The notes beneath the pieces are model-generated. The model searched no databases. It was not told the DNA's origin and saw only the letters and a list, made by a program, of their open reading frames with translations. This document shows positions 1,890 through 31,302 of a stretch of 64,000 nucleotides of DNA, one piece after another. Source of the stretch: Methylacidiphilales bacterium (GTDB taxonomy: Bacteria; Verrucomicrobiota; Verrucomicrobiia; Methylacidiphilales; UBA1321); assembly GCA_026225555.1 (NCBI GenBank), contig JAMFSY010000003.1:1-64000 (forward strand), written 5' to 3'. Within the stretch, counting starts at the first letter, position 1; the number at the start of each line of letters is the position of its first letter. Both the position numbers and the translations under genes were made by a program.

Positions 1890-1931
1890 GTGATAGTTGC
1901 TTTAGAGGGAAAGAGCAAGGATATTCCAGTC

Positions 1932-3999: not shown

Positions 4000-4016
4000 G
4001 GGGGCATAGTCCTCCA

Positions 4017-13606: not shown

Positions 13607-13608
13607 GG

Positions 13609-14091
13609 TCAGCTACCTGAATTAGGTACCTCGATGTTGAAAATATTCGTCGTCTGGCTCTTCGCCGTGGCGCTCGGCGCACTGATGATCTGGAGTTGGA
13701 TATCCACCAGGCTGCTTGAGATAGCCGAGACGGTCGCCCCCGGATAAGCGGAATTGGTCACCGTCGTGGTGGCCCAGTAACGGGTGGTGGCCGGTGCCGA
13801 CATCGGTGTATTGGTCAAAAAGGAGCCCTCGTCGTCATAGAAGTAGGTCTTTCCCGAAAAGGTGGTGCCGAGCTGGCTGAAAGGCGTCAGCAGGATTTGG
13901 CCGGTCAACTGGCGGGTGATCTGGCTTTCCTTGGTATCGTCCATCGCCAGCCGCATCGTCCCCAAACCGGTGGACATCAGCGCCATGACCGTCAGCAGGA
14001 CAAAGGAAATGATACCCAGGGCAAGGACCACTTCCACGAGACTGAAGGCGCGAGCCGCCCGATCGGCTCTCGATTTCAGGTCTCGCTCCAT
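13609..14091 (-). CDS. Verru_Chthon cassette protein B (GspI-like pseudopilin)
   Basis: 160 aa, first gene of the B-C-D-A cassette. Basic N-terminus, then RA|FSLVEVVLALGIISFVLLT (~14-33): +5 Glu is present, but -1 is Ala rather than Gly. The body is short, as in GspI/PilV pseudopilins. The start at 14091 has no clear Shine-Dalgarno. Upstream, on the minus strand, ATCTATATAGGAG sits close to the gene and could contain a -10 element. Confidence 0.82.
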   Translation of the reverse strand: MERDLKSRADRAARAFSLVEVVLALGIISFVLLTVMALMSTGLGTMRLAMDDTKESQITRQLTGQILLTPFSQLGTTFSGKTYFYDDEGSFLTNTPMSAPATTRYWATTTVTNSAYPGATVSAISSSLVDIQLQIISAPSATAKSQTTNIFNIEVPNSGS

Positions 14092-14868: not shown

Positions 14869-16407
14869 ATGCTGGAAAAAAGTAAAGCGGAGAGAAAAGA
14901 GCTATCGGGCGACGAGGCCGTGACTGTTTCGAAACAGGACATCCTGGCCGTTCTTTCGACGAAAGCGAAGGACCTGGCGCACTTTGGCCCGACCGCCACC
15001 AAATATCCCACGCTTCGAAAGATCCTTTCGAGTGCGGCGCAGGAGCTTCCTCCCGACACACGACTCCCCGGCATTCGCGACTTGGCCCTGTGCATGGGCT
15101 CCTCTCTCGTCACTATCCAGAAGGCCGTCACCGAACTGATCCACGAAGGAGTTCTCTATAGCAAACCCCGCGCGGGGGTCTTCGTCCGGGACCAGGATGA
15201 TATCAGCGATCATCCGGCGGATTCGTTTCCAGGCTCCTCTCCGCAGGGGCCGGGACATCCCTTCCATTTCGGCTTCAGTTTTGGGACGGACAGCGCGAAG
15301 CCCCATCAGCAAAAATTCTGGATGGAACTGGCTGAACAATTTTGCCAGAAGCATCCGAACGCCTACCCGACCCTCCACTTCGGCGCCAATCCTCCGCAGC
15401 ATACACCGCCCTTGGACGTCTACGAATGTTACAACTGGAAGATCACGGAGAAAAACTATCCCGCCGAGGTGAACGATATTCTCGATATCGGCGGCATCAC
15501 GCGGGCAGCTCTGCCGGTTCCCACCACGCGCGAGGGCCAGCTTCCCCTTTATCACCGGACTTATTTTCTTTTCTATAATCCCGAGCTCCTAGCCCGCCTG
15601 GGCCTGCCGGTGCCGACGTATAAAACTTTCGCCGCTCAATCGGCGTACCTGGACCAAGTCGCGCCGGAACTCGCGCGTCAAGGCTTCGATCCGAAGCCGT
15701 TTTCCGTCCAGGAGCCCGTCACTCTCCTCGGCGGGCACATCAGTGATTTTCTGACCCTGTTCGACAAGGATGAGAAAAATCCGGTGCCCGGACCGGAGCT
15801 GCTCAAGGCCACGGAAGACCTGCTTTCCTTCGCCCGACGCTGTCAGCGCGCCTCCCATCACCACGACAAGCTGCGGATCATGCGCAAGGAATTCCGGAAG
15901 GGCCTTCTTCCCTTCTTCATGGGTTACAGCGTCGATTATTGGGAGTTTTCCCAGCTCAAGCTTCCCTTTTCGCTTGAGGCTTATCCGACTCTTTGCTGCG
16001 ACGATACGTTCTTTCTTTGGCCGCGGGTTGGCACCATCTCCCGCCACTCGGAGCAGCCGGTGGAAAGTCTTAACCTGCTCATGTTTCTTCTTCGGAAGGA
16101 AAGCCAGCAGCGCTTCATCGCCACCGGAAACTTTGGCGCGAACCTGGTCGATACCGAGCAGCCCAAAATGGCCGCGGACCCGGCCTGGGTGGCGGAGGTC
16201 TTGAAGAGATCCTCTCCCTTCGAACTCGCCAAGAACCGCTATTACATGGCGATCAATGTCTTTGGCGGGCAGGTGTGGCGGAGCTTGCTGGAGGGGATCA
16301 GCGCAGCCGAGGTTCTCAGTCATGCGATTCAGATGGGGCATTTTTACCTCGAACACCAGCGCCTCAATCCCAAAAACAACGCCCCGGCCGAGCAACTCCA
16401 GGCCTGA
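14869..16407 (+). CDS. GntR-type regulator fused to solute-binding-protein-like sensor (copy 1)
   Basis: 512 aa, no signal peptide, so a cytoplasmic one-component regulator. A GntR-type winged helix occupies ~46-106 (TRLPGIRDLAL, then VTIQKAVTEL, then VLYSKPRAGVFV). From ~130 the protein resembles ABC-transporter solute-binding proteins (SBP_bac_1/MalE type): KFWMELAEQFCQKHPN; then YHRTYFLFYNPELLARLGLP, matching the family 'yyNkdlf.kaGl' block; then ISRHSEQPVESLNLLMFLLR and a QRFIATGNFGANL region, matching 'iskkSknkeaAwkFlkfl...q'. AraR-type GntR proteins use a LacI-like sensor, which this does not resemble. A paralogue lies at 29782-31302. It likely senses a sugar and controls the secreted proteins downstream. 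The fold is read by eye. Confidence 0.8.
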   Translation: MLEKSKAERKELSGDEAVTVSKQDILAVLSTKAKDLAHFGPTATKYPTLRKILSSAAQELPPDTRLPGIRDLALCMGSSLVTIQKAVTELIHEGVLYSKPRAGVFVRDQDDISDHPADSFPGSSPQGPGHPFHFGFSFGTDSAKPHQQKFWMELAEQFCQKHPNAYPTLHFGANPPQHTPPLDVYECYNWKITEKNYPAEVNDILDIGGITRAALPVPTTREGQLPLYHRTYFLFYNPELLARLGLPVPTYKTFAAQSAYLDQVAPELARQGFDPKPFSVQEPVTLLGGHISDFLTLFDKDEKNPVPGPELLKATEDLLSFARRCQRASHHHDKLRIMRKEFRKGLLPFFMGYSVDYWEFSQLKLPFSLEAYPTLCCDDTFFLWPRVGTISRHSEQPVESLNLLMFLLRKESQQRFIATGNFGANLVDTEQPKMAADPAWVAEVLKRSSPFELAKNRYYMAINVFGGQVWRSLLEGISAAEVLSHAIQMGHFYLEHQRLNPKNNAPAEQLQA

Positions 16408-16683
16408 TAGCGCTGGAACAGCCTCCGTTCAGCCAGGCACATCAAGAGAGTCGTCTCGTGCGCGATTCCACACCTCGGCTTCCATTTGGAAATGCCATTA
16501 TCTTCTTAGCTGTTATATGTCAGTTGAGAGCTAGGTCTGATTTCCCAGACTCCATCTAGCTTAAGAGCTATACCGAGTTGACATCGAGCCTGTGAGTCGC
16601 CAGTGTCGCAAGGAAAGCGTTAGTCTATTATATAACAATAAACCCGCTCGAACGCGGAACTCACGGAGCGGAGAACATCGACG

Positions 16684-17265
16684 ATGAAGCGAATCACCCA
16701 AACCCTCTTCCTTTTAGCCCTGACCCTTTCCGGGCTGATTACCTTCGCACGGGCGCAGGAAAACTTAATCCCCAACGCCGACTTCTCCGATGGAAATGGC
16801 AAGCAGGTGAACAATTGGGAATTCTCGACCTGGATTGTGAACGATAATCCTCTCATCAAGGGGAAGGTCGATGGCTCGGTCAATACCGACACCGATGGTC
16901 ATCGTTATCTCTCGGTCACCTCTTCCGAATCCATCCACGCGGCCCAGATGTGGTGGCAGACCCATCCCATCATCTGCTCTCCCGGCGCGACCTATAACCT
17001 GAGCGTCATGACCAAGGGCACGCTGACCAGCGGAAGTGCGCATATGGTCGTCGCCCTGTTCTTCATGGATCAGGCGGGGAAGTGGCTGAACCTCCAGGAG
17101 ATCGCCCCGGTTCCCGACCTGTCGGATGCTTGGCAAAAAGTGGAAGGTTCCATCACCCTGCCCGAGAATGCCGAGAAAGTGGGCGTCCGCCTGGGACTGG
17201 TATTTTCAGATGGGCAGGCCACCGTCTTTTTCAAGGACCCGGCGCTTGTTCTCAAGACCAACTAA
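16684..17265 (+). CDS. Small secreted carbohydrate-binding-module-like protein
   Basis: 193 aa with signal peptide 1-24 (cleavage after ARA). The mature part begins QENLIPNADFSDGNGKQVNNW, cut here for length to its pattern: an N-terminal strand then NW, typical of CBM4/9/16-like galactose-binding jelly rolls. It continues with YNLSVMTKG, WQKVEGSITLPENA and ends with FFKDPAL. No catalytic motif is seen. It probably binds sugar in the periplasm or outside the cell. It is 276 bp after the GntR copy 1 gene and 16 bp before the large glycosidase, so it is likely co-transcribed with the latter. Confidence 0.7.
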   Translation: MKRITQTLFLLALTLSGLITFARAQENLIPNADFSDGNGKQVNNWEFSTWIVNDNPLIKGKVDGSVNTDTDGHRYLSVTSSESIHAAQMWWQTHPIICSPGATYNLSVMTKGTLTSGSAHMVVALFFMDQAGKWLNLQEIAPVPDLSDAWQKVEGSITLPENAEKVGVRLGLVFSDGQATVFFKDPALVLKTN

Positions 17266-17281
17266 ACTCATCCCCATTCTC

Positions 17282-20200
17282 ATGAGGCAATTTATGGCTC
17301 GCTGGATTCCCCTGCTTTCGGTCCCTGCTTTTGTGCTCCCGCTGGTTTTTGCCGGAGGAATAAATCTCCGGGCGGACATCGCTCCGTCAACTCCGACGAC
17401 CACCCCCTCCTTCGAAATCTATCCCGACTCGGAGACCTCCTATAATCCGCGCGTGCCCTGTATCTCTCCGGTCGACCGACCTGACGGAGGGAAATGCATG
17501 GAGGCGGAAGCGATCTTTGATTACGCCCTGGCGCCTTACGTCCAGTTCGCCGCGGGCGGAACCCTGAAGGCGCAGGTGCGGGACAACGGTCGCCGCGAAG
17601 CCAAGGACATCCTCACGCTGAGCGACGGAAAAGTGAGTCTCATTCTACGCGTGGCCGCAGCGGCGAAGGGCGGCCTTCCCGCTCTCGTCCTGCTCGACGG
17701 CGGAAAAGTGGTGGCCTCGGCGCCGTTCCAAGCGGCCCTGCCGAAGTCCTGGAGCCAGGTTGAACTTCAATGGGACCAAACCGGGGCTCGGCTTAGCCTC
17801 GCAAGTGGAGAGACGGTCAAGATCGCCCTTCCCGCGCTCCCTCATTTTAAAACCGTCAGCCTGCAAACCGCCCAAGTGACTCAGTTGAAAATCGAGGGAG
17901 AGGGAAAATTCTCGCTCGATTGGGAAGATGGTTACGCGGCCCGGATGGAACCGCGGCCGGACAGCCAGGACGTCACCGCGCGGTTCTTCGGCTTCGATAC
18001 CTATGTGATTTCACAGGACCGCGCGAAGCGGGATTGCCCCACGGTGCAGGTGATTAATGGCGGCGCACAGGAACAGTCCGTGACCTTCGATTACCGTCTG
18101 GCCGGCGAAGCAAACCAGAGCCACCAGGAATGGAGCCAGCAGCTCAAGATTCCGGCCCAATCCGCCGTGATGATGCCGCTGGCTTTCCCGACGCCGCTTT
18201 CCAGCGATGTCTACCATCTGGCGATCCATTCGAGCTCCCTGCAGCCGGTGTATGCCGCCAACCGGCATTTTCTTTTTGTCGAAGATCGCAACGAACCCAA
18301 GGGCACGCCCAAGTTCGGTCTGCACGATTCCGCGCGGAACCTCTTCGGCTGCTGGCCCGATGCGTTGCCCGTCGATCTCTCGACCAATTATATTTATTGG
18401 GGTACCGTGATGGGTCCGCCCTGGGACAAGGATCCCGGCATGACAGCCGACACCCCGCCGGAGCAATGGAACTGGAGCCGCCGCGTGGATTGGGCCATCG
18501 CGCAGGGCTTGACCAGCTACGTTTCTTTCCAATCGACGCCCTATTTCGACTGGGCGCGGGAACGATCCTACCCGCCCGAGCACATGAGGACGCTGGGGTT
18601 TGGAACCCTCGGCGGATTTCCCAAGCTGGATCTTTACCGCAAATTCGTGAAGACGGTGGCGCTTCGCTACAAAGGGAAAATCCACCTCTACGAAATCGAG
18701 AATGAGCCGATGGCCCATTCCGGAATCCCGCCGGAAGATTACGTGGAGATCTCCCGCGCCGTGACGGAGGAAGTGCATGCGGTCGATCCTGACGCGCGCG
18801 TTTACGGCATCTGCGGCACCGGGGATTTCCTGCCCTGGATGACCAAAGTTTTCGCCCTGGGCGGCCCCGGTGTGATGGACGGCGTCTCCATCCATACTTA
18901 CGTGACGCCGAACATGCCGGAGACGGCCAACCTCCCGGCCAAGCTTGCCGAAGTGGACAAGTTGATCGCGAATTCCGGGCATCCGATGCACTTGCTCAAC
19001 TCCGAGACCGGCACCTACGTCGCCCTGCGCGAGGAGGCGGATCATGCAATTTCCCCCGCCCGGCTCGAGGAACTGGTAAAGGCCGGGACGCCTAATCTCT
19101 TCGTCAAAACGGGTTGGCCCTTCCATGCCATTGACGAACGGAGCGGAGGCATTTCCGTGATCCGCAATGCGACCTACAACTTCCTCGCCAAGGCGGAGTA
19201 CTTCACCTTTTTCGGTTACAACCCCGACTGGCCCTCGACCGATTGGTGGACCCAAAACGGTCCTTATTCCTGCTGGGCGATTATCTCGGCGACCAAGGAC
19301 GGCGTGCGCACGCCGAGTCTCTTCACGCTGGCGATTGGCGTGTTGACCGAACAACTGAAGGGCGCCAACCAACTGCAGGGTCGGCCTGTGAATCAGGAGG
19401 GCTTGATGGGCGGCGTTTTCCCCAAGGCCAACGGCGGCGAGGTGGCGGTCGTCTGGTCGCCAATGGGCAAGCGCAGTGCCTTGATCCAGGCGCCAGGATC
19501 GGAGGTCGAATTGGTCACCATGTTGGGACAAAAGAAAATGCTGACCACCACGGGCGCCTTGGGCAAGGGACTCTTCCGTTTGGAGCTGGATGACGAGCCG
19601 GTCTACCTTCATTTCAGTCAGCCCGGCTTTCAAATCCTGCCCTCGCCGGTGATTGCGCTCTCGCAGCAAGTCTCCGGAAGCTCTGCAGGTTTTCATTTCA
19701 CCGTGGTCAACAAATACCCTCAAGCCTGGCAGGGAAGCGTGGAGCTTGCGCCGCCGTCCGGATGGAAAGTGACGCTGGATGCAAGCGACTTTTCTCTCGA
19801 CCCGGGTAAGCGGCAGGTCGTCAACGGGACTTGCGAAATTCCGCCTGGAACCAAGAAGGGCTCCTACACAGTCGAGGCTTCCCTGAAACTTCCGGATGGA
19901 ACGCCGTTTGCCTTTCCCATCAGCATCGACGTGCGCCCCACGCTTACCGTCCCGGCGGTCGCGGACAATTTCAGCTGGGATCAAGCGTCCTCATGGCAGG
20001 ATGTGAAACCGTCCTTCAAGATCGACCAGACCGACCAGGTCATGATCGGTCGCCCGCCGCTGCTGGCTTCCCTGCAGGAGGAAAAAGATTGGAAGGGGCC
20101 GGGTGAATTATCCGGCGAAGTCCGGCTGGCTTCGAATGCCCAGGATCTTTTTGTCTATATCGACGTGCTGGATGTGAATCTGAACGCGCCGAAAATCTGG

Positions 20201-20626
20201 CCGGGTGTCATAGGATCCTGCGTCGAACTTTTCCTCGATGGCCGTGCGCCGGACGCGGGGTTGGGCAGCGCTCCCTACAGTTCGGGCGTGCATCAATTGC
20301 TGCTGAAAGCTCCGGAGGCATCGGCCGCGCCGGAGCCGATCCAGATCGCGGATGCCTCGGAAAAATTCGGCAAACTGGATGGAGTCACCGCGGTTGCCGG
20401 CCGGACGTCCGCCTCGAAATACTGGATGGCGATTCAGATTCCCTGGAAGTCGCTCGGCGCCACGCGGACAACCGGCCAGCCCTTCGGCTTCGATCTCGGC
20501 ATCAATGGTCCGGGCAAGGGCGGCGTCGGGCGCAAGAGCCAGATGATGCTCTTCGGCACCGGCTCGGACAACTCGGACGCCTCCGGCTTCGGCATGGCGA
20601 GCCAGGGAACTGACGCGGCGAAATAA
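17282..20626 (+). CDS. Large secreted clan-A-like glycoside hydrolase with C-terminal CBM9-like domain
   Basis: I start at ATG 17282, giving 1114 aa with a signal peptide (FVLPLVFAGGINLRA, 14-28); the open frame upstream overlaps the previous gene. N-terminal ~270 residues are beta-rich. A TIM-barrel follows (~340-650) with a clan-A-like pair: HLYEIENEP with acid/base candidate E475 (N474 before it) and LLNSETGTY with nucleophile candidate E575, resembling GH39/GH5-type barrels. After ~770 come immunoglobulin-like strands (VVNKYPQAWQGSVELAPP). The C-terminal ~220 residues (from FSWDQASSWQDV) resemble CBM9/DOMON modules. Substrate unknown. Neighbouring binding protein and GntR-SBP regulator suggest an inducible extracellular polysaccharidase. 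Confidence 0.75.
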   Translation: MRQFMARWIPLLSVPAFVLPLVFAGGINLRADIAPSTPTTTPSFEIYPDSETSYNPRVPCISPVDRPDGGKCMEAEAIFDYALAPYVQFAAGGTLKAQVRDNGRREAKDILTLSDGKVSLILRVAAAAKGGLPALVLLDGGKVVASAPFQAALPKSWSQVELQWDQTGARLSLASGETVKIALPALPHFKTVSLQTAQVTQLKIEGEGKFSLDWEDGYAARMEPRPDSQDVTARFFGFDTYVISQDRAKRDCPTVQVINGGAQEQSVTFDYRLAGEANQSHQEWSQQLKIPAQSAVMMPLAFPTPLSSDVYHLAIHSSSLQPVYAANRHFLFVEDRNEPKGTPKFGLHDSARNLFGCWPDALPVDLSTNYIYWGTVMGPPWDKDPGMTADTPPEQWNWSRRVDWAIAQGLTSYVSFQSTPYFDWARERSYPPEHMRTLGFGTLGGFPKLDLYRKFVKTVALRYKGKIHLYEIENEPMAHSGIPPEDYVEISRAVTEEVHAVDPDARVYGICGTGDFLPWMTKVFALGGPGVMDGVSIHTYVTPNMPETANLPAKLAEVDKLIANSGHPMHLLNSETGTYVALREEADHAISPARLEELVKAGTPNLFVKTGWPFHAIDERSGGISVIRNATYNFLAKAEYFTFFGYNPDWPSTDWWTQNGPYSCWAIISATKDGVRTPSLFTLAIGVLTEQLKGANQLQGRPVNQEGLMGGVFPKANGGEVAVVWSPMGKRSALIQAPGSEVELVTMLGQKKMLTTTGALGKGLFRLELDDEPVYLHFSQPGFQILPSPVIALSQQVSGSSAGFHFTVVNKYPQAWQGSVELAPPSGWKVTLDASDFSLDPGKRQVVNGTCEIPPGTKKGSYTVEASLKLPDGTPFAFPISIDVRPTLTVPAVADNFSWDQASSWQDVKPSFKIDQTDQVMIGRPPLLASLQEEKDWKGPGELSGEVRLASNAQDLFVYIDVLDVNLNAPKIWPGVIGSCVELFLDGRAPDAGLGSAPYSSGVHQLLLKAPEASAAPEPIQIADASEKFGKLDGVTAVAGRTSASKYWMAIQIPWKSLGATRTTGQPFGFDLGINGPGKGGVGRKSQMMLFGTGSDNSDASGFGMASQGTDAAK

Positions 20627-20665
20627 CGCGTCGGACTGCGGCTAGATTCGCTTCCATTTAAGTCA

Positions 20666-20780
20666 GTCATCCTGAGCTTGTCGAAGGATCAGCTTCCGGC
20701 CGCACCCGATTTTAGAGAGAGATATCCTTGCAAACCGTGAAAGTCAACGGAGGCTGATCCTTCGACAAGCTCAGGACGAC
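20666..20780. repeat. Long inverted repeat (28-nt arms)
   Basis: Left arm 20666-20693 and right arm 20753-20780 are reverse complements with one mismatch; the core is CCTGAGCTTGTCGAAGGATC. The 59-nt loop is unremarkable. It lies between convergent genes ending at 20626 and 20843. Sequences with this core are widespread intergenic repeats in many bacteria. It could act as a bidirectional transcription barrier or be a small non-autonomous element; no target-site duplication was identified. Confidence 0.8.
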
Positions 20781-20842
20781 GGCCAGTTACCCCCACCATT
20801 ATGGGAAATTGGTCCAGGCTTGAAGCATTGGGAATAAGACTA

Positions 20843-22810
20843 TCATCCGATTTCCAGCACCGCATGAATGTCGAGCCGAGGGACAACCACCGTCGCCGTC
20901 CCCTGCTTCCACTGGAACGAAAGCCGCCGACCTTCAGGCTGAAGCCGGATGCGCCGGGGACGGGCGGCGACTTGAATCTTCAGCGTCAGCGGCCCGAGCG
21001 GGGCGACCTCGTCGAAGGTATAGCAATCCCGGTTGTCGTGCGGCCCCGAAACGTTCAGGAGGTTGATGAGCAACCTGCCCTCCTTTTTCATCACCATGAC
21101 ATCCACGTCGTGCGAGCCCTCGACCTTCACCGCCGGATTTGGGAAGAGATGTTGCACCAGCGCCCCAAAGATCTCGCGCGCCTGGGCCGTTTTCTGAAAC
21201 CGATAGCGCGCGCCGAAATCAAGCGCCAGTCCAGCGATCTCACCTCGGCCCAGCTTTCGCGTCACCGCGGCCGGATGGGACGGCGATTTCAGATCGTCGC
21301 TCTCGTGCCACCGGGCCCAAATGCGCGCGCCTCGACCGGCCGTGAAGGCGAGACCGGCGCCGGCCAGACCGGCCAGTTTTCCATCCTTCTCCAGCCAGCG
21401 GCTCTTCTTCTCCGCCTCGCTCTGCACGCGGATGCCCAGTTCCTTGGAAAAAAGCGGCACCGCCTTGGAACCGATGACCAGAAGCTTGCCGCCCTGGCGG
21501 ACGTAACTCAGCAATTCCCGCCGGAAAGGTTCCTCCAGAAATCCCCATTCCGGAATCACGATGAGCGGAAAGTCCTGCATCCGTCCCGCGAGATGATGCT
21601 CGCCAAGAACATCGACGTGAAAATGATTATTCAACAAGGCGAGCAGCGTTCCCAGGATACCCTCGACTTCCCCATGCCATGGCGCGAAAAGCCGCTTGAG
21701 GCTTCGGTAGAGCGCCGGGGTGGAATAGAGCAAGGCCACCTGTGGAACGCTTTCGGCCCGGTGACAGATCGCCTGCCGTTCACGGCAAAATTGCGCCACT
21801 TGCTCCATGAGTCCCAGGTGCTGCTCGCGGATCGTGCCATCCCGGCGCTGGTTGAAGTACATCTGGAATCCGCCTCCCAGCGACACGACACAGGCGGCTT
21901 CGCGCTGGAGTTGCGCCACCGGCTTGGTGGTCCGGCAGGAATCGGGTGCCACGCTGCCAAAGGACCACGCCATTAGGTCCCACGGCTTGCCCTGATGCAT
22001 CAGGCACCGGCCTTCCCATCGCGCGGAGTTGACGCTGTCGATCGGGTTGTAATCGCCGGAAAGAAAATCGACCGGCGCGCTCACCCGTTCGGGCATGAAA
22101 GAGCTGAAAATCCAATTGCTCGTGACTTCCACGCCGGGACACTGCCGATGAATCTCCTCGAGATAATGCCTCACGTATTGGCGAAAACCTTCCCGGCAGA
22201 ATTCTGAAAACTCAAAGTAATAAGGATCACCCGGCTGACGCGGGACGTTTTGAATTCCCGTCCGACGGCGAAATTCCCGTAGAACTTTCCGTCCGTAATC
22301 GCGATCGGCCGCCCAACATTCGCCATCGAGCCAGTAGCCGTCGACCCCGTGGATCTCGCGCAGTTCGCGCAATTGCGGAAGCAGATGGGCATCCACGTAG
22401 GGACCGAAGACCGAAGTATTCTTGGGATCGCGCCGGCCCTTTTCGCTCACTCGGGCCCAGGCCGGATTTCTTTTGATCGCCTCGATGTCGTAGACGCCCG
22501 AGAAATGCATGTAAAGGGAGACGCCGTGCTTGGCCGTGACCTGCCTCCAGGTCTTCAGCGGATTGCCGCGCATGCCCGGCACGGGATAGCCCACGCGGGT
22601 CGGATAACTGCTCCAGCCGGGATGCCCCTTGCCATCGCACTGCACATAGTCGGGACGGATGCGGCGGAGCAGGCGGTCCAGCGCAGGCCCGATGGGGTGG
22701 TGACCGAGTTCGCCATCCTGCGGCGTGGCGTGAAAATCGAAGTGAATGCCGAAAAAACTCTGCGAGCGCGGAAGCCGGGCGGGAAGCTTGGAGGCGTCAG
22801 AGGCGTTCAT
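20843..22810 (-). CDS. Putative TIM-barrel glycoside hydrolase with GATase/trimerisation-like domain
   Basis: 655 aa, no signal peptide. The N-terminal two thirds look like a (beta/alpha)8 barrel: HFDFHATPQD (23-32), RPDYVQCDGKGHPG (52-65), then GVDGYWLDGECW with D162/E164 as possible catalytic residues, and VDFLSGDYNPID. This layout resembles enzymes annotated alpha-L-fucosidase-like or beta-galactosidase-trimerisation proteins. Around 400-480, VDVLGEHHLAG, FPLIVIPEWGFL and YVRQGGKLLVIGSKAVPLF match the Rossmann-like trimerisation domain of GH42-type enzymes. The C-terminus is beta-rich. Last gene of the leftward four-gene operon. Substrate uncertain; probably acts on imported oligosaccharides. 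Confidence 0.68.
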   Translation of the reverse strand: MNASDASKLPARLPRSQSFFGIHFDFHATPQDGELGHHPIGPALDRLLRRIRPDYVQCDGKGHPGWSSYPTRVGYPVPGMRGNPLKTWRQVTAKHGVSLYMHFSGVYDIEAIKRNPAWARVSEKGRRDPKNTSVFGPYVDAHLLPQLRELREIHGVDGYWLDGECWAADRDYGRKVLREFRRRTGIQNVPRQPGDPYYFEFSEFCREGFRQYVRHYLEEIHRQCPGVEVTSNWIFSSFMPERVSAPVDFLSGDYNPIDSVNSARWEGRCLMHQGKPWDLMAWSFGSVAPDSCRTTKPVAQLQREAACVVSLGGGFQMYFNQRRDGTIREQHLGLMEQVAQFCRERQAICHRAESVPQVALLYSTPALYRSLKRLFAPWHGEVEGILGTLLALLNNHFHVDVLGEHHLAGRMQDFPLIVIPEWGFLEEPFRRELLSYVRQGGKLLVIGSKAVPLFSKELGIRVQSEAEKKSRWLEKDGKLAGLAGAGLAFTAGRGARIWARWHESDDLKSPSHPAAVTRKLGRGEIAGLALDFGARYRFQKTAQAREIFGALVQHLFPNPAVKVEGSHDVDVMVMKKEGRLLINLLNVSGPHDNRDCYTFDEVAPLGPLTLKIQVAARPRRIRLQPEGRRLSFQWKQGTATVVVPRLDIHAVLEIG

Positions 22811-22864
22811 GATCAGGATGAGATGAAGCGAGTCAGGCTCCCTCCCGGAGCTTCGGCCCCGATT

Positions 22865-24103
22865 TTATTTGGAGGAGAGACTGGCTTGCTGAACTTGCCG
22901 CATGGCTTCCGCGTAGCGTTGGCCAAACTGCTGCTGAGAGTCGGCGTTAAAATGGAGATGGTCGCCCTTGTCGGTCAATCCCTTGGAATCGGCGAAGGCC
23001 ACGCGGGGCAGATCACCGGCGATATGGGTGATCGCCGCCTCGACGGTCGCCGCCTGCGGAAACCGGACGAATTCACCCAACTGGCCGACGACGATCGGCA
23101 AGTCGGGAACGCCGACGTCCTCGCGGAAGTCGCGAAACATCTGCACGAGACGCGTCTCGTAGGAGTTGGCGAGATCGGGCTTCTCGCTGTCCGACTCGCC
23201 CTGATGCCAGAGCATGCCCGCCAGGACGCCTGTTTGCTGCGCGATCCTCGCCTCTTTCAACGCCGCCTCGTAAAGATCGGCTCCCTTGACCCAACGGCTC
23301 AGTGGCGTGCCTCCCACCGCGCAGGGCACCAGGCCAATCTTTCCATCTGGGTCGCCCTGCAACATGGCCCTGGCGAAAGGAATCCCCGGGCCGATGCCGG
23401 AACCGCCCGCGTGCATCGGTTCAACCGCGACGAACCAGGCCGCGCCTTTCAGGTAACCGATCCGTGGATCGGTCGCCTGCGATTCGAGGCCCGTTGCATC
23501 GCGTCCCACCATGTTCGATTGGCCCATGAGGAGATAGATGTGCAGCTTCGTTTTGTCGCCCGTATCGAAGGGCGTTTGCGGCGGATGGTAGGCCTGGGTT
23601 TTCGCGGGAGCAGCCGGAGCAGGCGCGGGAGCAGGCGTGGGGGCGGGCGGGATGGATGCTCCACTGCCGCCTTCCACTTTGAGCAAAATCAGCCCCGCCT
23701 CAAACGGCTTTGAGGAAGTCTGAAGCAGCGCGGGCGGATGATCCAGTTGCAGGACCTCATAAGTCAGCGGCGTGCCACTCGACGAGACGACATGGAAACT
23801 TTTCCCCGTGTCGTGAGCCGAGGGATAAGCCTGCATGAAGGTGGGCACATCGCCCGAGAAAAGGCCGAAGGTGACCGAGTCGGGCGAGCCGCTCAGACTC
23901 AGCGTGCGGGCCGAACAACTCGACTGCGGCAGTGGTGTATCGCTGCGCAGATCGTCGGGAATATCGGAGAGCGTGTAGGTGCCGACGCGATCCGACCAAG
24001 GACACTGGCCATCCTGAACTGTGAAGGTTTCCGGTGCAGCCTGGCCAAAGACGGCGGCGGGCCACAGGGTGATGTAGAGAAGGAGAAGCAAGGTTGTTTT
24101 CAT
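22865..24103 (-). CDS. Secreted SASA/CE6-type carbohydrate acetylesterase
   Basis: 412 aa with signal peptide (1-20; cleavage near VFG-QA). A ~130-residue N-terminal beta domain is followed by a Pro/Ala linker (152-168) and an SGNH-fold SASA (DUF303) domain: LLMGQSNMVGRD with nucleophile S196, ML WHQGESD-type block III and DKGDHLHFNADS supplying the His. It removes acetyl groups from sugars; xylan or sialic-acid-type specificity cannot be told. The start ATG overlaps the stop of the preceding acetylesterase by 4 nt. Unlike its operon neighbours it is exported. Confidence 0.85.
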   Translation of the reverse strand: MKTTLLLLLYITLWPAAVFGQAAPETFTVQDGQCPWSDRVGTYTLSDIPDDLRSDTPLPQSSCSARTLSLSGSPDSVTFGLFSGDVPTFMQAYPSAHDTGKSFHVVSSSGTPLTYEVLQLDHPPALLQTSSKPFEAGLILLKVEGGSGASIPPAPTPAPAPAPAAPAKTQAYHPPQTPFDTGDKTKLHIYLLMGQSNMVGRDATGLESQATDPRIGYLKGAAWFVAVEPMHAGGSGIGPGIPFARAMLQGDPDGKIGLVPCAVGGTPLSRWVKGADLYEAALKEARIAQQTGVLAGMLWHQGESDSEKPDLANSYETRLVQMFRDFREDVGVPDLPIVVGQLGEFVRFPQAATVEAAITHIAGDLPRVAFADSKGLTDKGDHLHFNADSQQQFGQRYAEAMRQVQQASLSSK

Positions 24104-25992
24104 AAGGAGGAGTTAGGGTGGAGGGAGGACGGACAGAAATAGGAAGGGCGAAGATAGTTATTTTTCTCGAGTTGTTCCGGTGAAACATCCTCGCGCACGA
24201 AACGGAGAACGAATCCCCAGGAGCGGCCGCCGTTGAGATCCATCGCCACCGTGAGCCGGTGCGTGCCCGCGGCGAGCGCGAACGATTTCTCGCTCTGATC
24301 GGCATAGCACGGATTGCTTCCGTTCAGGTCTTCGAAGAGAACCCTGCCGTCAATCCAGACCCGGAACGGTCCATCGTAGCCCATAAGGATTCGGAGTTTC
24401 ATGGACTCCTCCAGTTGAACCATGGATTCGAAGGCGGCATGGCCGGATCGTCCCTGCCATTGCTCGTGCTCGTTGATGAAGCCTTCGAGCCCCCAGCCCG
24501 CGCCGTAGGTTTTGACTGTCGTCTCGAGAGGATCGAAAGAGGGACAGGCGATCTTCCCCAACGATTTGACCGCATCAAGAACCTTGGTGGTCCTCCAGGT
24601 TGTGACGAACGACAGATAGGCGGCGGGCCGGAAAAGCGGGAGCGGGCCGAATACGGGCAGAGAGAAATCGCGCCCATCCGTCACGTTTGCGATGGGTGCG
24701 AGACCATGGCCATAGTGAAGTTGAAGATCGGGGCCCAGCGTCCGGCAGCAGTGCAGCCGCACCATCTTGCCATGCAGTGTGGTCTTGAAAATCACGGGGA
24801 GGACCTTTCCCTCGGCATTCACCAGCGTGAAGCCCTGCGGCACTCCGTCCGCCCGCAGATTTCCCTCCACCGAATCGAAAAGCACGTCGATCGTCGGGCC
24901 CGCCGGGGATTGTGAATTTTTGGTGGGCTTGATCGCTCGCAATTGCGGCGGCCTTTGTCCCGCGCCGGAAATGAGATGGCGTGCGGCGCGAGCCAGGCGC
25001 GCCGCCAACCGGGGAAAACCGGCCGCGCCGATGTGAACGCCATCGTCCAATGGCAGGTCGATCGCCGCCACCGTTTCGAGATTTCGGATCTGCCGGGGAA
25101 GCTGACGCTGTTGCTCCTGCACGCGGTTCCAGTTGACGGCATCGTTGTCTCCATAGACGCGCGCGAGCTGGACCATGATCCACGGCAGGCGCGGCTGGCG
25201 CAGGTCCCGCCGGCAGGCCGCGACCAGCTTTTTCATCCGGTCGGTGTAAAGCGGCGCATCCTTGGCTGAGGCCTCGTTTTCGCCCTGATACCAAAGAACG
25301 CCGGCCAGCGACTGGCCGTTCGCGCGCAGGGAAAGCAGCATCGAACCGTAGAGAGAATCCCCTCCCCGATCTTTCAAACCCGGATCCCACTGGACCAGAG
25401 TCGTACCGCCGTGCGCGGTCGCGATGAGTCCCTGCGGAACACCCGAATGCCTGAACATTTCTCGCGCAAAGTAGAGACCGACGCCCGCGCCCTTGAGCGC
25501 ATTTCGCCGCGCCGCTTCACCCTCCTCGGGCGACCACTGACGGCCCTGATGATGGCAGGCATCGGGTGACTCGTTGAGAAGATGCAGCGGCTCGACCGCC
25601 TGCCTCCACGCGCGGCGCATGGAAAAAAGCCGGATGAACGGATGCGGCTTCGCCGGGGCCGTCATGTCTCCGCAACCCTCCATGTTGCTCTGCCCGGCCA
25701 TCAGCCAGACATCGCCGACAAAGAAATCGCACCGGACCGATTCCCCGCCCGCCCGCAGCTCGAGGCGATAGGGACCGCCCACAGGAAGCCCTTTCAGTTC
25801 GGCCTGGAATTTCCCGCGTCCGCTCTTGCCCACGGTACGCGGTTTCCAACCCTTCAGAATGCTTTTCCGATGGAAGAGCGTGGCGACGACCGGCCCGCTG
25901 GCGGACGTTTTCCCCATCAGCCGGACTTGCGCGCCCCGCGAACCCAGACGCTGCAAAACCTGACCCTGGATGAGGCCGCTGAGGATGTTCAT
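24100..25992 (-). CDS. Cytoplasmic SASA-family acetylesterase (sialate O-acetylesterase-like)
   Basis: 630 aa, no signal peptide. An N-terminal strand domain (1-90; LSGLIQGQVLQR, GGPYRLELRAGG) and an SGNH domain with DVWLMAGQSNMEG (nucleophile S102), ATAHGGTTLVQWDP, VLWYQGENEAS and DDGVHIGAAGFPRLA (His block) match sialate O-acetylesterase-like proteins. The C-terminal ~150 residues form a lectin/PA14-like beta module (LRILMGYDGPFRVWIDGRVL). Probable role: deacetylation of imported oligosaccharides. It lies 27 bp after the GH3 gene and overlaps the next acetylesterase by 4 nt. Confidence 0.83.
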   Translation of the reverse strand: MNILSGLIQGQVLQRLGSRGAQVRLMGKTSASGPVVATLFHRKSILKGWKPRTVGKSGRGKFQAELKGLPVGGPYRLELRAGGESVRCDFFVGDVWLMAGQSNMEGCGDMTAPAKPHPFIRLFSMRRAWRQAVEPLHLLNESPDACHHQGRQWSPEEGEAARRNALKGAGVGLYFAREMFRHSGVPQGLIATAHGGTTLVQWDPGLKDRGGDSLYGSMLLSLRANGQSLAGVLWYQGENEASAKDAPLYTDRMKKLVAACRRDLRQPRLPWIMVQLARVYGDNDAVNWNRVQEQQRQLPRQIRNLETVAAIDLPLDDGVHIGAAGFPRLAARLARAARHLISGAGQRPPQLRAIKPTKNSQSPAGPTIDVLFDSVEGNLRADGVPQGFTLVNAEGKVLPVIFKTTLHGKMVRLHCCRTLGPDLQLHYGHGLAPIANVTDGRDFSLPVFGPLPLFRPAAYLSFVTTWRTTKVLDAVKSLGKIACPSFDPLETTVKTYGAGWGLEGFINEHEQWQGRSGHAAFESMVQLEESMKLRILMGYDGPFRVWIDGRVLFEDLNGSNPCYADQSEKSFALAAGTHRLTVAMDLNGGRSWGFVLRFVREDVSPEQLEKNNYLRPSYFCPSSLHPNSSL

Positions 25993-26019
25993 GTGAAGGA
26001 CAGGATTTGGCGGAGGCGC

Positions 26020-27741
26020 TCAGCTACCCATGGCGAGTTCAAAACGCGGAACGATCGACTGCTCAGCCGGAAGAAGACAGCTTCCCTCCGCCACGCTCCA
26101 GGCAGGCTGAAGATTCACCGGAGAAATTCCTTCGAATGGAATCTCGCCAAAGAGCGCGCGCTCGAGCGCCGCAAGCGTGGCCGGATTCGGTGAGTAGGCA
26201 TTGATGTAGGTCTCCGACCAAGGCACATCATAGAGCAGGAAAGGCGATCCGAGCGAAACGATGATCGGCTGCATCGTCTCGAGTCCCTGAATGGTCCAGA
26301 GACCCTCGGCCATCTCGCCCGCCGGGCGCATGGTATTTTTCAGGCCATGTGTCCAGAGCTCGAAGACGGCCACGAGCGCATCGTAATATTCACCCTCCGC
26401 CTCCTTGCGGCGCAGGTCGAGGCAATTGCCGTTCACGTGAAAGTCGACCTTCACGCCGCGCTTCTCCAGCGCGTTTAGCAAGGGACTCAGCCGTTCCTTC
26501 GCTCCTTTTTCCCGAGGGGTCGCCAGAAAAACCAGGATGCGCCGGGTCTTCGCCGAATCGAGCGGAAGAAGGCCCCGGCGATTCTCGACCAGCGTGAGAC
26601 TTCGTTCCGCAACCGTTTCCGCAAACCGAACCGCTCCCTCCTCGGGATGGAGGGAAGAAAGCTCGACCGGCGCGGAAACGGGAAGCTCCTTCGCCGCCCG
26701 CGCCGCCTCGAAAAGTCCCTGCCGCTGCTTCATCTCCAGGATGCGCTTCACACTTTGATCGAGGCGTTCGTGAGCAATGCGACCTTCATCCAGCGCGCGC
26801 TCCATCAGATCGAAGTAATCGGCGCCGGGCCAGAGCATCACGTCGATGCCGGCGTTGAACGCCTCGACGATGAGATCCGCGTGCGTGGCCGTCCTGCCGC
26901 GAAAACCGGCCATGATCAGCGCATCCGAAACGATGACGCCTTCGAAGCCCATGCGTTCGCGCAGCAGACCGTCCAAAATTCGGCGTGAAGTCGTCGCGGG
27001 CAATGGCGAACGGCCCGTGCCCAGTTCCGGCTCCATCCAAGGCAGCGCCACATGTCCGGCCATGACCGCGTGAACCCCTACGGCAAAACAAGTCTCGTAT
27101 AAGCTCCCGAAAATCCGGTGCCATTCCTTCTCGGAAAGGGAATTGATTGAGACGCAGAGATGCTGGTCGCGAAAATCGACGCCATCCCCGGGAAAGTGCT
27201 TCGCCGTGGCGCTCAATCCGTGGTCCTGGCAACCCCGGATGAGGGCGGCGGCGAGTTCGGCGACGCGCTCCGGTGACTGTCCCAGCGAGCGAATGCTCAC
27301 AACCGGATTCAACCAGTTGAGGATGAGATCGACCACCGGTCCAAAGGACCAGTTGAACCCGACGCGCACGGCCTCGACCGCCGTCCAGCGGCCATATTCA
27401 TAAGCGGCGGCCGGATCGTTCATCGCTCCAAGGGCCAAAAGATTGGGGAAAGCGGTCAGGCCCCGAATCGCCCCGCCCGCGCCATTCTCCAAGTCCCCCG
27501 CGATCGATAGGGGCAGCCGGCTTGTCACCTGGCACTGGCGAATCAAGCGTTGCAGCTTTTCAGCCTTCCCGGTCTCCGAGCCGATGATTTCGCTGCCCAG
27601 AAAGATGCTGCCTACGGGCCGCTCCCCGAAATAGGCCTGAAGTTCGTCGCCATTTAAGTGGCCGATGTCCTTCCCGTGAATCTGGCACGTCTGACCAATT
27701 TTTTCCCGGAGACTGAGTTGACTGAAGTGGATTTCTTGCAT
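26020..27741 (-). CDS. GH3-family glycosidase (NagZ-like / beta-glucosidase-like)
   Basis: 573 aa, no signal peptide. GH3 motifs: ATAKHFPGDG (178-187), RDQH (191-194) and VIVSDALIMAG with nucleophile D273. A D-x-H triplet after KHFPGxG is the acid/base hallmark of GH3 N-acetylglucosaminidases (NagZ type), which argues for an N-acetylhexosaminidase or related phosphorylase rather than a simple beta-glucosidase. Unlike short NagZ it has a second (alpha/beta) domain (~370-573). First gene of the leftward operon; its promoter faces that of the SGNH gene at 27888. Confidence 0.82.
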   Translation of the reverse strand: MQEIHFSQLSLREKIGQTCQIHGKDIGHLNGDELQAYFGERPVGSIFLGSEIIGSETGKAEKLQRLIRQCQVTSRLPLSIAGDLENGAGGAIRGLTAFPNLLALGAMNDPAAAYEYGRWTAVEAVRVGFNWSFGPVVDLILNWLNPVVSIRSLGQSPERVAELAAALIRGCQDHGLSATAKHFPGDGVDFRDQHLCVSINSLSEKEWHRIFGSLYETCFAVGVHAVMAGHVALPWMEPELGTGRSPLPATTSRRILDGLLRERMGFEGVIVSDALIMAGFRGRTATHADLIVEAFNAGIDVMLWPGADYFDLMERALDEGRIAHERLDQSVKRILEMKQRQGLFEAARAAKELPVSAPVELSSLHPEEGAVRFAETVAERSLTLVENRRGLLPLDSAKTRRILVFLATPREKGAKERLSPLLNALEKRGVKVDFHVNGNCLDLRRKEAEGEYYDALVAVFELWTHGLKNTMRPAGEMAEGLWTIQGLETMQPIIVSLGSPFLLYDVPWSETYINAYSPNPATLAALERALFGEIPFEGISPVNLQPAWSVAEGSCLLPAEQSIVPRFELAMGS

Positions 27742-27887
27742 TTTTCCCTTAACTGATCTATTACAGATTTATCTCCCCAAGCGCAATATGAAACCTGTTG
27801 CTAGCCTTACATTGAGCACTTGTACTGTAACAGATTGACAAAAGAACTGAAGGGCGGCAGATAATCCTCTCTCTTCCTTATTCCTTC
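27742..27887. promoter_or_regulatory. Divergent promoter of the glycan locus with repeated CTRTWACAGAT motif
   Basis: Rightward promoter: TTGACA (27835-27840), 19 nt, GATAAT (27860-27865). Leftward candidate: TTGCGC, 17 nt, TAATAG. Two copies of CTRTWACAGAT occur, CTATTACAGAT (27758-27768) over the leftward -10 and CTGTAACAGAT (27825-27835) touching the rightward -35. CTGT-A-ACAG is itself a small palindrome. Their placement suits operators, perhaps for the GntR-SBP protein encoded in the rightward operon. Confidence 0.45.
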
Positions 27888-29780
27888 ATGAAAATTTCAC
27901 CTGCCATCCGATTTTCGGGCCTCCTCCTTTCCCTGGTCGGCCTTCTTTTCGCGGAAAACGCCCTTCACGCCGAAACCATTTGGTGGGAAGCCGAGGCCGC
28001 CAAGGACACGAACATGCCCGTCAAGGCCGGCGATCCGACGCTAATCTCCGGCGGACAATGGCTGGACGGCGAGGTGAAGGAAGGTCTCTATGCCGATTAT
28101 AATGTCAACGTCGCACAGGGTGGCCACTTCACCTTTCTGGCACGCCGTCTCTGGTTGCATGGCGCATTCCGTTGGCGCTTCGACGACGGCGCATGGGTGA
28201 ATGTCGAGGGGCTGAATCAGGACATCGTGGATCAGGTCACCACAAAGGAGGGACCCGCCTGCTGGATCGATCTCGGCTATGTCACGCTCAAGCCCGGCCC
28301 GCACACGCTTCGAATCGAGCTCGTCACACAGACCACCTACCAGTTCAACCATCTCTTTGCGTTCGATTGCTTCGTGTTGAGCAACGAGGGCTTCGCACCT
28401 CTGGGGATCAACCCCGCGGGAGGCCCGCATCGTCCAGAGATCAAAATCAACGAAGCCGATTTCGGGAAGTTCCTGCCGCGGACGATGGCGCTGCTCGAAT
28501 CGAGCGGCCCTGATCATCACACCCCGCTCCACATTCTTTTCTATGGGCAATCGATCATCGCCAACAGCGCGATCGACCAGGAAATTTTGAAATACCTGCA
28601 CGGGAAATATCCGTATGCGGACATTAAAATCAAGAAGGTGGCCATCGGCGGCTACGAGGCTCCGCGCCTGCGCAAGACCGCGTGGCAGGATCTCTATCCT
28701 GAAAATCCCGACCTGCTCGTCTTCCATGATTATGGCGGAGAGAATGGCGAGTTGGAGGAAATCTATCGCGGCATTCGCAGCAATCTCACCACGGAAGTTT
28801 TAACTTGGACCCATCACGTCGATAATTTCGGTTCGGGCATCGACAAGCAGCGGGACGCTTCCTCCATTATCCTGAGAAGTCTTGCCGCGAAATACGGCTT
28901 CGAGCTGGCCGACGTGCGAGTGCTTTGGAAGGACTATCTCAAGGAGACGCACCTGCCCCGCACCGATTTCCTGATTGATAAAATGATCCATCTCAATCCG
29001 AAAGGAACGGATCTTCTGGCCAGCTTTCTCCTGCCCCACTTCCGGGTGAATCCCGACGCCTCGACAGATTGGAAGAAACATATCACGACAATCCCCCTGT
29101 CGGCTTCGGCAAAGGAAGTCACCTTCGATCCGGGCGCATGGACGACTTCCAGCCAAGGCGTGGTTTCCAGTGGAACCGCCCCGTTGAAGATCGAGCTTTT
29201 CGGCAATCGCGTCGATCTCACCGGCGTGTCGGGGACCGGCTCCGCCAAGATTCTCCTCGACGGCCAGACGCCCTCGACCGAGCCGGACACACTCGCCGCC
29301 AGCCGCTCGGACAAAGCTCCCGGCTCGTGGTGGCCCGCCATCAGTCTCGTGCAGTTGGGCAAGAATACGATAGTGGAAAAGTACACGCTGAATTTCCACG
29401 GCGTGAAGCCGGACGGATCGAGCTACGCCTTCACCGTCCAGGGTTCCGTCTCGGGTGACGAGGGCGCCGGAACGTCGGGCGTCGATTTCGTTTCCAAGTC
29501 GGGCCGAATCTCGATCAAGGCCGAGGATATTGCCCTTTCCACGGTGAAGAAAACCTTGAAGAAGGACCTGCCCGCGCAATTCACCATTAACTTCGAAGTC
29601 CATTCGATGAGCGAGGATCTTTGGAAATCACCCGGCGCGCTTCCGCCCGGAACCGTGTCGCAGCGAACCGTGATCCGTTGCTGGACCGACGGCCCGCACA
29701 CGCTCGAGATCATCCCCAACAACGATGGACCGGTCGGCTTCAGCGAGCTGACCATCTTCTCACCTCTGGGCCGCGGTTGA
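27888..29780 (+). CDS. Secreted SGNH-hydrolase-like protein with N-terminal binding domain
   Basis: 630 aa. Signal peptide 1-28 (LHA-ET). The N-terminal ~160 residues form a beta domain beginning IWWEAEAAKDTN, typical of CBM6/CBM35-like modules. An SGNH-type domain follows: LHILFYGQSIIANS with candidate nucleophile S222, DLLVFHDYGGENGE and DKMIHLNPKG with D364/H368; spacing is D-x3-H rather than the usual D-x2-H. The C-terminal ~240 residues are beta-rich and possibly carbohydrate-binding. First gene of the rightward operon; the regulator starts 1 bp after its stop. Likely an extracytoplasmic sugar esterase; activity unproven. Confidence 0.72.
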   Translation: MKISPAIRFSGLLLSLVGLLFAENALHAETIWWEAEAAKDTNMPVKAGDPTLISGGQWLDGEVKEGLYADYNVNVAQGGHFTFLARRLWLHGAFRWRFDDGAWVNVEGLNQDIVDQVTTKEGPACWIDLGYVTLKPGPHTLRIELVTQTTYQFNHLFAFDCFVLSNEGFAPLGINPAGGPHRPEIKINEADFGKFLPRTMALLESSGPDHHTPLHILFYGQSIIANSAIDQEILKYLHGKYPYADIKIKKVAIGGYEAPRLRKTAWQDLYPENPDLLVFHDYGGENGELEEIYRGIRSNLTTEVLTWTHHVDNFGSGIDKQRDASSIILRSLAAKYGFELADVRVLWKDYLKETHLPRTDFLIDKMIHLNPKGTDLLASFLLPHFRVNPDASTDWKKHITTIPLSASAKEVTFDPGAWTTSSQGVVSSGTAPLKIELFGNRVDLTGVSGTGSAKILLDGQTPSTEPDTLAASRSDKAPGSWWPAISLVQLGKNTIVEKYTLNFHGVKPDGSSYAFTVQGSVSGDEGAGTSGVDFVSKSGRISIKAEDIALSTVKKTLKKDLPAQFTINFEVHSMSEDLWKSPGALPPGTVSQRTVIRCWTDGPHTLEIIPNNDGPVGFSELTIFSPLGRG

Positions 29781-29781
29781 T

Positions 29782-31302
29782 ATGGCCGACTCCAAAAAGA
29801 ATCCGAAAGGCAAAGAGCGGTCCACCGTTTCCCAAGAGGAGATTCTGGGCCAGCTCTCGGCCATGACGAAGGAGCTGACCGAGATGCGCGCGACCAGCGT
29901 CAAGTATCCCGCGTTGACAAAAATTCTTCGCTCGGCCGCGCAGGAACTTCCGCCACACACCCGCCTGCCGGGCATCCGCGATCTCGCTCTCTGCCTGGGA
30001 GCTTCCCTCGTGACCATGCAACGCGCCGTCGCCGAATTGCTGAATGAGAAGGTTCTCTATAGCAAGCCGCGCTCGGGTGTCTTCGTCAGTGATCGAGACG
30101 TGGAGGAAAGCAGCGCCGGACCTCCCACCCCACCCGTGCCATTTTCTCCGGGAACGGGCCATCCCTTCCGCGCCGTCTTTGAATTCTGCACCGATAGCGC
30201 CGCGTCTTATCAGAAGAAATTCTGGGAGAATCTGGCGGCGCTCTTTTCGCGGCAATATCCCAATGTCACGCCCTCGCTTCATTTCGGAGCCGATCTCCTT
30301 CAGAGCTCGAAGTTTTTCGACGTCTGCGAACGCTATGACTGGGACCGCTTCAGCAGTTGGAAGGTGGACGATGTTCTCGATATCGCCGGTTTCGCGGGCT
30401 CGCTCCTGCCTATTCCGCCCGCGCGAGGCCGGCTGCTTCCGCTCTATTATAGAACTTATTTTCTATTCTATAACGATTCGCTGCTGGAAAAGCATGGCCT
30501 GCCGAAACCCGCCTACCACACCTTCGACGCCCAGGCCGATTACCTGCGCCATCTCGTCCCCGAACTCGCGCGCCTCGGCTTCAATCCCAAGCCCTATTCC
30601 ACTCAGGAACCGGCCACTCTTTTCGGCGGAAAAATCGTCGAATTCAGCCACCTGCTCGAAGAGAACCCGGCCGATCCCCGCCTGAAAAAGCAATTTATCG
30701 AGCTGATCGAAAAGCTGGCTTCCTATTGCCGACTCTTCCGTTACTCGCTCAAAGACCGCAATGACTGGATGCAGGCGCGGCAGGAATTTCTCAACGGACG
30801 CGAGCCTTTCTTCATGGGCTACAGCGTCGATTACTGGGAATTTTCGCAAAAGAAATTTCCGTTCCGCCTGAAGAACTATCCCACTCTCTGTTGCGACGAC
30901 ACGTTTTTCCTCTGGCCCCGGGTCGGCGCGATCTCCCGCCACTCCGAACATCCCGTGGAGAGCACCCATTTCCTCCTCTTTCTACTCTGCGAGGATGTCC
31001 AAAAACGCTTTTGCGCGACCGGTAACTTCGGCGCCAACCTGTCGGACAATCTCTATCCCGAAATGGCGGTCGATCCCGCCTGGATGGCCCAGGTTCTTCA
31101 CCGGTCGTCCCCGTTTCACTTTACGACCAAGGAGGGCTATTACATGGCTGTCAACGTCCTCGGCGGGGAACTCTGGCGCAGTCTCGTCGGCGAAATTCCT
31201 TCCCAAAAAACATTGGATCAAGCGATCCAAATGGGCCGGTCCTATCTCTCGCACCGGCCCGCCAATAGGGTGGGAAAAGCGGGCGACTCACGTTTGCACT
31301 GA
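29782..31302 (+). CDS. GntR-type regulator fused to solute-binding-protein-like sensor (copy 2)
   Basis: 506 aa, paralogue of the protein at 14869-16407 and alignable over its full length. Winged helix ~40-103 (TRLPGIRDLALCLGASLVTM, VLYSKPRSGVFV). SBP-like region: FWENLAALFSRQYPN, YYRTYFLFYNDSLLEKHGLP, HPVESTHFLLFLL and KRFCATGNFGAN. Strictly shared stretches include FFMGYSVDYWEFS and LCCDDTFFLWPRVG, which may line the ligand cleft or the domain interface. No signal peptide. It sits between the SGNH gene (1 bp away) and uidA (9 bp away), so it probably regulates this locus. Confidence 0.82.
   Translation: MADSKKNPKGKERSTVSQEEILGQLSAMTKELTEMRATSVKYPALTKILRSAAQELPPHTRLPGIRDLALCLGASLVTMQRAVAELLNEKVLYSKPRSGVFVSDRDVEESSAGPPTPPVPFSPGTGHPFRAVFEFCTDSAASYQKKFWENLAALFSRQYPNVTPSLHFGADLLQSSKFFDVCERYDWDRFSSWKVDDVLDIAGFAGSLLPIPPARGRLLPLYYRTYFLFYNDSLLEKHGLPKPAYHTFDAQADYLRHLVPELARLGFNPKPYSTQEPATLFGGKIVEFSHLLEENPADPRLKKQFIELIEKLASYCRLFRYSLKDRNDWMQARQEFLNGREPFFMGYSVDYWEFSQKKFPFRLKNYPTLCCDDTFFLWPRVGAISRHSEHPVESTHFLLFLLCEDVQKRFCATGNFGANLSDNLYPEMAVDPAWMAQVLHRSSPFHFTTKEGYYMAVNVLGGELWRSLVGEIPSQKTLDQAIQMGRSYLSHRPANRVGKAGDSRLH

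Follow-up and report, generated by a model that had tools for sequence, protein, structure and literature searches.

What does a GntR-type regulator sense when its C-terminal part resembles the sugar receptor of an ABC importer? This question is raised by two genes, REG1 and REG2, in a 64,000 nt stretch of DNA from a Methylacidiphilales bacterium (assembly GCA_026225555.1, contig JAMFSY010000003.1, positions 1–64,000, forward strand; the whole stretch is termed the window). Both open reading frames are present exactly where a prediction made from the sequence alone (the original prediction) had placed them. Each joins a GntR-type winged helix-turn-helix (wHTH) to a solute-binding protein (SBP) domain, an architecture designated here GntR-SBP. 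REG1 and REG2 are probably cytoplasmic repressors of a uronate/amino-sugar glycan locus, with the SBP-derived domain serving as effector domain and a ligand relieving repression. The architecture, the fold, the missing secretion signal, the conserved gene association and the clustering of candidate operators were all computed. The features of the two proteins are:

14869–16407, + strand: REG1, GntR-SBP regulator, 512 aa
15004–15186, + strand: REG1 winged helix-turn-helix, residues 46–106 (Pfam GntR at 58–106)
15256–16353, + strand: REG1 SBP-fold sensor domain, residues 130–495 (by alignment to the modelled REG2 domain)
29782–31302, + strand: REG2, GntR-SBP regulator, 506 aa, within an apparent operon
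29905–30087, + strand: REG2 winged helix-turn-helix, residues 42–102 (Pfam GntR at 54–102)
30157–31251, + strand: REG2 SBP-fold sensor domain, residues 126–490 (SBP_bac_8 match, AlphaFold2 model, Foldseek)

The head of each protein is matched by Pfam GntR, with 28.2 bits in REG1 and 26.4 bits in REG2, the latter just under the cut-off of 27. The solved structures closest to the REG2 wHTH are YvoA, GabR and AraR. The SBP-like part is ~365 residues in each regulator; REG2 has a Pfam SBP_bac_8 match of 39.6 bits (cut-off 27), and SBP_bac_1 is sub-threshold in both proteins. Together with the fold model described below, these matches bear out the predicted union of a GntR-like head and an SBP_bac-type C-terminal part. 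Pfam and NCBIfam matches to proteins of the GntR subfamilies span essentially only the head, and the C-terminal domains that define FadR, HutC, MocR, YtrA, AraR and PlmA are not found in REG1 or REG2. No signal peptide or transmembrane segment was detected in either protein by hydrophobicity in 19-residue windows, as had been claimed; the peak mean is only +1.2 to +1.35 and is located in the wHTH. The location is considered cytoplasmic because the wHTH is present and a signal sequence is absent.

The sensor domain was modelled in REG2. An AlphaFold2 model from three close sequences (pLDDT 38) was unusable and was replaced by one built on a 54-sequence alignment of divergent Verrucomicrobiota relatives, with a pLDDT of 85.4 (mostly > 90 in the C-terminal domain) and a pTM of 0.70. 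A Foldseek comparison of this model against the PDB gives ABC-importer SBPs as all 50 of the 50 top matches, and nearly all are of the oligosaccharide type. The alignments span ~390–436 columns, and the best match is the trehalose/maltose SBP 1eu8 (E 1.5e-14); others are raffinose/panose, sulfoquinovosyl (SmoF), beta-1,2-glucan and arabino-oligosaccharide binders. The target-normalised TM-scores are 0.53–0.64 and the rmsd is high, which is consistent with lobe rotation and the additional head. PDB sequences searched with a profile concur: winged helices of the YvoA/AraR type match the head, and the same SBP group matches the remainder. In the model, residues ~130–500 have a two-lobed ABC-importer SBP fold and not a LacI-like one. 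The original prediction had named a LacI-like or unrelated fold as the outcome that would speak against it, and SBPs are found at every one of the top ranks. Its proposal that an extracytoplasmic receptor was recast as a cytoplasmic effector domain is supported by the fold, the wHTH and the missing export signal.

REG1 and REG2 are the sole GntR-SBP copies in the 4.09 Mb assembly and have 53% identity. The wHTH is 79% identical and the sensor 54%; on this basis the two probably bind common operators but respond to different ligands. The motifs noted in the original prediction are located in both proteins: YFLFYN (positions 232 in REG1 and 226 in REG2), FFMGYSVDYWEFS (349/343), LCCDDTFFLWPRVG (375/369) and ATGNFGAN (418/412). 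Two aromatic blocks described there as near-invariant and as candidates for the ligand pocket, FFMGYSVDYWEFS and LCCDDTFFLWPRVG, are near-invariant only among REG1, REG2 and the ortholog from Candidatus Methylacidiphilaceae bacterium UBA1321 (P0003, ~49% identity; a genome search places UBA1321 in the family of the window). In the 54-member alignment they are reduced to 'F..G'.

The architecture is not limited to this genome. A total of 54 full-length GntR-SBP proteins were collected in Verrucomicrobiota, where they occur in at least five further families (f29, f34, f53, f54 and f85) with up to six per genome. Pfam GntR matches 53 of the 54 (E ≤ 0.001). Identity to distant members is 15–24%, and the only invariant column of the alignment is in the wHTH. 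About ten more were found in Bacilli from 300 sampled genomes, among the matches that reach the head. The fusion is real but no local invention: it is widespread in Verrucomicrobiota and Bacilli, and REG1 and REG2 are therefore members of a large undescribed group. Narrower queries had not revealed this group: a scan of the genome collection with REG1 alone found no relatives, and a scan with a three-sequence alignment found only UBA1321 and two Streptococcus loci matching the head alone. No plasmid relatives of REG2 were found. The head of one further GntR-SBP gene (G095, at L021/L103) is interrupted by an in-frame TAG, so the gene is either a pseudogene or misassembled.

In a tree built from the SBP domains, the fusions form three groups, i.e., 17 sequences that include the window's (100% SH-aLRT support), 21 other Verrucomicrobiota sequences (100%) and nine from Bacilli (98%), and ordinary SBPs fall between them. 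GntR and SBP may have fused independently up to three times, in a tree that is unrooted and includes few free SBPs. The Bacilli proteins, e.g., WP_121614118.1 from Mesobacillus foraminis, likewise have a GntR head followed by an SBP domain but form this separate lineage. The M. foraminis gene (L139, positions 3196–4614; NZ_CP033045.1) lies in an ABC sugar operon beside permeases, and the operon holds a separate substrate-binding protein of its own. Although WP_121614118.1 opens with a GntR head, it is labelled 'extracellular solute-binding protein'. This annotation suggests that the mislabelling may be systematic, and many GntR-SBP members may be hidden in databases under that name.

Both regulators are located among secreted glycan genes, as originally described, with an SGNH protein at REG2 and CBM_4_9 and CBM9 proteins at REG1. 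The genes concerned are:

22865–25992, − strand: two SASA carbohydrate acetylesterases
26020–27741, − strand: GH3 enzyme, beta-N-acetylhexosaminidase-like, no signal peptide seen (Pfam GH3, 209.7 bits)
27888–29780, + strand: secreted SGNH/GDSL-like hydrolase (weak GDSL match)
31312–33126, + strand: GH2 beta-glucuronidase, no signal peptide seen (PRK10150, 810.8 bits, cut-off 544)
33229–35217, + strand: sodium/solute symporter, SSS type (NCBIfam TIGR00813, 66 bits, below cut-off)
16684–17265, + strand: secreted CBM_4_9 protein, downstream of REG1
17126–20626, + strand: large secreted protein with CBM9 and NPCBM-associated domains (the listed open reading frame probably starts too early)
112–3071, − strand: nagA-like, nagB-like and LacI-family genes, at the left edge of the window

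The order around REG2 is two SASA genes and GH3, divergent from SGNH, which is followed by REG2, GH2 and the SSS symporter. REG2 starts 1 bp past the SGNH stop codon. The GH3 protein scores 113.9 bits against NCBIfam PRK05337, below the cut-off of 207. The symporter has no call in Pfam; it is the probable importer for the sugar of the locus. No ABC permease is present among the scanned neighbours of REG1 and REG2, and the single free SBP_bac_8 protein of the genome is on a different contig beside its permease. Judged from their sequence families, the enzymes point to a glycan of uronic acid and amino sugars that would be partly O-acetylated. No solved family could be named for either the SGNH protein or the large secreted protein. 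The latter has no Pfam match in its N-terminal half and may be an unclassified glycoside hydrolase. A 655-aa protein without a signal peptide, encoded at 20843–22810, has a sub-threshold GLMA-like match and is possibly an unassigned glycoside hydrolase. Four successive genes on the minus strand (8305–14091) end just upstream of REG1. Their products, one of 1244 aa, have pilin/pseudopilin-like N-termini, and the genes resemble a pseudopilin cassette common in Verrucomicrobia.

The gene arrangement is conserved. UBA1321 (locus L100) keeps the divergent GH3 gene, SGNH and the regulator in the same order, with identities of 64%, 57% and 49%, and a nagB-like gene adjoins. This conservation is a new observation, as is the association in the distant family f29, where locus L101 has a regulator fragment with homologs of SGNH (36%), the CBM protein and the large secreted protein within 7 kb. 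The last is 41% identical over 1100 aa, and a 33% identical homolog at L096, also in f29, adjoins a separate regulator. In genome G010 (L116, positions 9746–10127), a 50-residue piece of a regulator head (62–64% identity) adjoins a 76-residue SGNH piece, and these fragments are what is left of a decayed REG2-type operon. The associations in UBA1321, L101, L096 and G010 show that the regulator and the glycan genes travel and decay together.

A new candidate operator, ATCTRTTAYAG, was derived by eye when the stretches between GH3 and SGNH were compared in the window and UBA1321. It contains a GntR-like core, CTGT-N-ACAG; the candidate CTGTTACAG fits the operator pattern of the GntR kind (yGTNxAC) and clusters at the regulator loci. 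The intergenic DNA at 27742–27887 carries the candidate ATCTGTTACAG. The sites in the window are:

27756–27768: candidate operator ATCTATTACAGAT, 15 bp upstream of the GH3 start codon
27823–27835 (motif 27825), − strand: candidate operator ATCTGTTACAGTA, 53 bp upstream of the SGNH start codon
8121–8133 (motif 8123), − strand: candidate operator ATCTGTTATAGAG, ~40 bp upstream of a PEP-CTERM/autotransporter-repeat gene

There are four exact copies in the 4.09 Mb genome, three of which are on the regulator contig, all upstream of genes. The fourth (C174:6443) falls within an open reading frame and was regarded as a chance occurrence. In UBA1321, both of the two exact copies are on the regulator contig. 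One (L100, position 10217) is also 15 bp from GH3, taking the internal ATG of GH3 as the start, and the other (7547) is just upstream of a secreted-protein gene. Two more operator-like sites, ATCTGTTATATAG and ATCTGTTATATAT, are found at L100 4886–5051, upstream of a gene for a PEP-CTERM-like secreted protein. The motif has no copies in six genomes of the same genus that lack the regulator, whereas three same-family genomes that have no intact regulator carry one to three.

In the mechanism proposed for this locus, REG1 and REG2 would be one-component regulators with dimerising GntR winged helices, and the effector domain would be a former oligosaccharide-binding protein of an ABC importer. 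The ligand-free regulator would sit on palindromic ATCTGTTAYAG-type sites over promoters and starts and keep the glycan genes repressed. Secreted esterases, CBM proteins and hydrolases would free an acidic and/or amino-sugar oligosaccharide, which would enter the cytoplasm, probably via the adjacent SSS symporter. The sugar would close the two SBP lobes, the winged helices would move and the DNA would be released. The sugar would then be broken down by the GH2 beta-glucuronidase, the GH3 hexosaminidase and NagA/NagB. Dimerisation, ligand binding, the identity of the ligand, and repression with its relief are the steps that we infer.

Several observations weigh against this mechanism. REG1 alone has no above-threshold SBP match in Pfam. 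No clear candidate operator precedes REG1 or is present at the L101 locus. Only the sites at 8123 (chance 0.034) and 7547 (chance 0.013) are independent of motif discovery, because the other two sites of the window and one of UBA1321 defined the motif. A control with the backwards pattern gave six hits in UBA1321, so the motif is clustered there but is not enriched overall. The motif is also similar to an extended −10 element (TGnTATAnT), a reading made less likely, though not dismissed, by the lack of copies in congeners. If the sites are operators, they may also be activating sites, with REG1 and REG2 as ligand-activated activators. The SGNH-side site, 53 bp ahead of the start codon, is in a position open to an activator, but on the GH3 side the distance is only 15 bp, in the window as in UBA1321, which puts the site over the initiation region as in steric repression. 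Characterised GntR proteins are, moreover, mostly repressors. Activation is thus improbable, and repression relieved by ligand is favoured because the sites lie over the start region.

A domain with an SBP fold need not bind a sugar. It may be a mere scaffold for dimerisation or a partner protein, with control by protein contact or dosage, and the weak single-sequence SBP similarity of REG1 and REG2 and the high divergence of the family would agree with this. However, the REG2 model retains both lobes, the association with glycan genes is conserved, and aromatic-rich blocks are near-invariant in the window's subgroup, as expected of a retained pocket; a scaffold is an unlikely explanation. There is hardly any room for the view that visual inspection misled and REG1 and REG2 are ordinary AraR-type regulators whose sensor is LacI-like. 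AraR-like GntR proteins of ~370–400 aa do exist in Verrucomicrobiota (e.g., at L029) and their wHTHs are similar, but the Pfam, profile-PDB and structure searches lead to SBP_bac_1/8 and cluster-D SBPs, and no LacI-type (type I periplasmic-binding) match is among the matches listed. The REG2 model and its Foldseek matches were taken to reject it. It is just as improbable that the N-terminal HTH match is spurious and the proteins are SBPs of the secreted or membrane kind, as the annotation of the Mesobacillus relative within its ABC sugar operon would have it. That operon already has its own binding protein, the GntR head is matched in nearly all members, and export signals and hydrophobic segments are absent from REG1 and REG2, so this reading was rejected as well. 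Ligand-relieved repression is the reading retained here.

A 2015 review of GntR regulators lists six subfamilies, FadR, HutC, MocR, YtrA and the minor AraR and PlmA, and no solute-binding sensor is described in its text (PMC4494728). The subfamily list of the original prediction includes no SBP-based sensor. A domain survey reports 76 companion domains for GntR, and SBP is not named in its text (PMC5882156). Bacillus AraR is similar to REG1 and REG2 in having a GntR-type wHTH on a sugar sensor derived from a periplasmic binding protein, but its sensor is LacI/GalR-like (type I), not the two-lobed SBP fold of the maltose-binding kind. The CUT1/cluster-D SBPs (1eu8, 4zze, SmoF 7ofy and AbnE 6rjy) share the fold over ~400 columns and the SBP_bac_1/SBP_bac_8 families; in contrast to them, REG1 and REG2 have no export signal, are fused to a DNA-binding head and have no adjacent ABC permease. 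Escherichia coli SgrR is a cytoplasmic transcription factor that responds to sugar metabolism and joins its DNA-binding head to a domain resembling ABC solute-binding proteins. It differs in its HTH, in a peptide-type SBP_bac_5 domain and in having no GntR head, and no SgrR_N or SBP_bac_5 match was found in the Pfam scan of the 54 members. The parts are thus known and an SBP domain in a cytoplasmic regulator has precedent. No account of a GntR-SBP subfamily was found among the openly licensed papers searched, although the combination is widespread in genomes.

On balance, GntR-SBP proteins appear to be a large unrecognised GntR subfamily, possibly arising from up to three fusions, in which an importer receptor has moved inside the cell to control glycan loci. 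If so, a regulator family that ranks among the largest in bacteria would gain a seventh type of sensor, a further route from extracellular sugar receptor to cytoplasmic switch would be shown, and a database class in which regulators are labelled as exported proteins would be corrected. The candidate operator provides a concrete target for testing. As SBP specificity is well studied, the sensor domains would also offer a way to read which glycan each GntR-SBP locus answers to.

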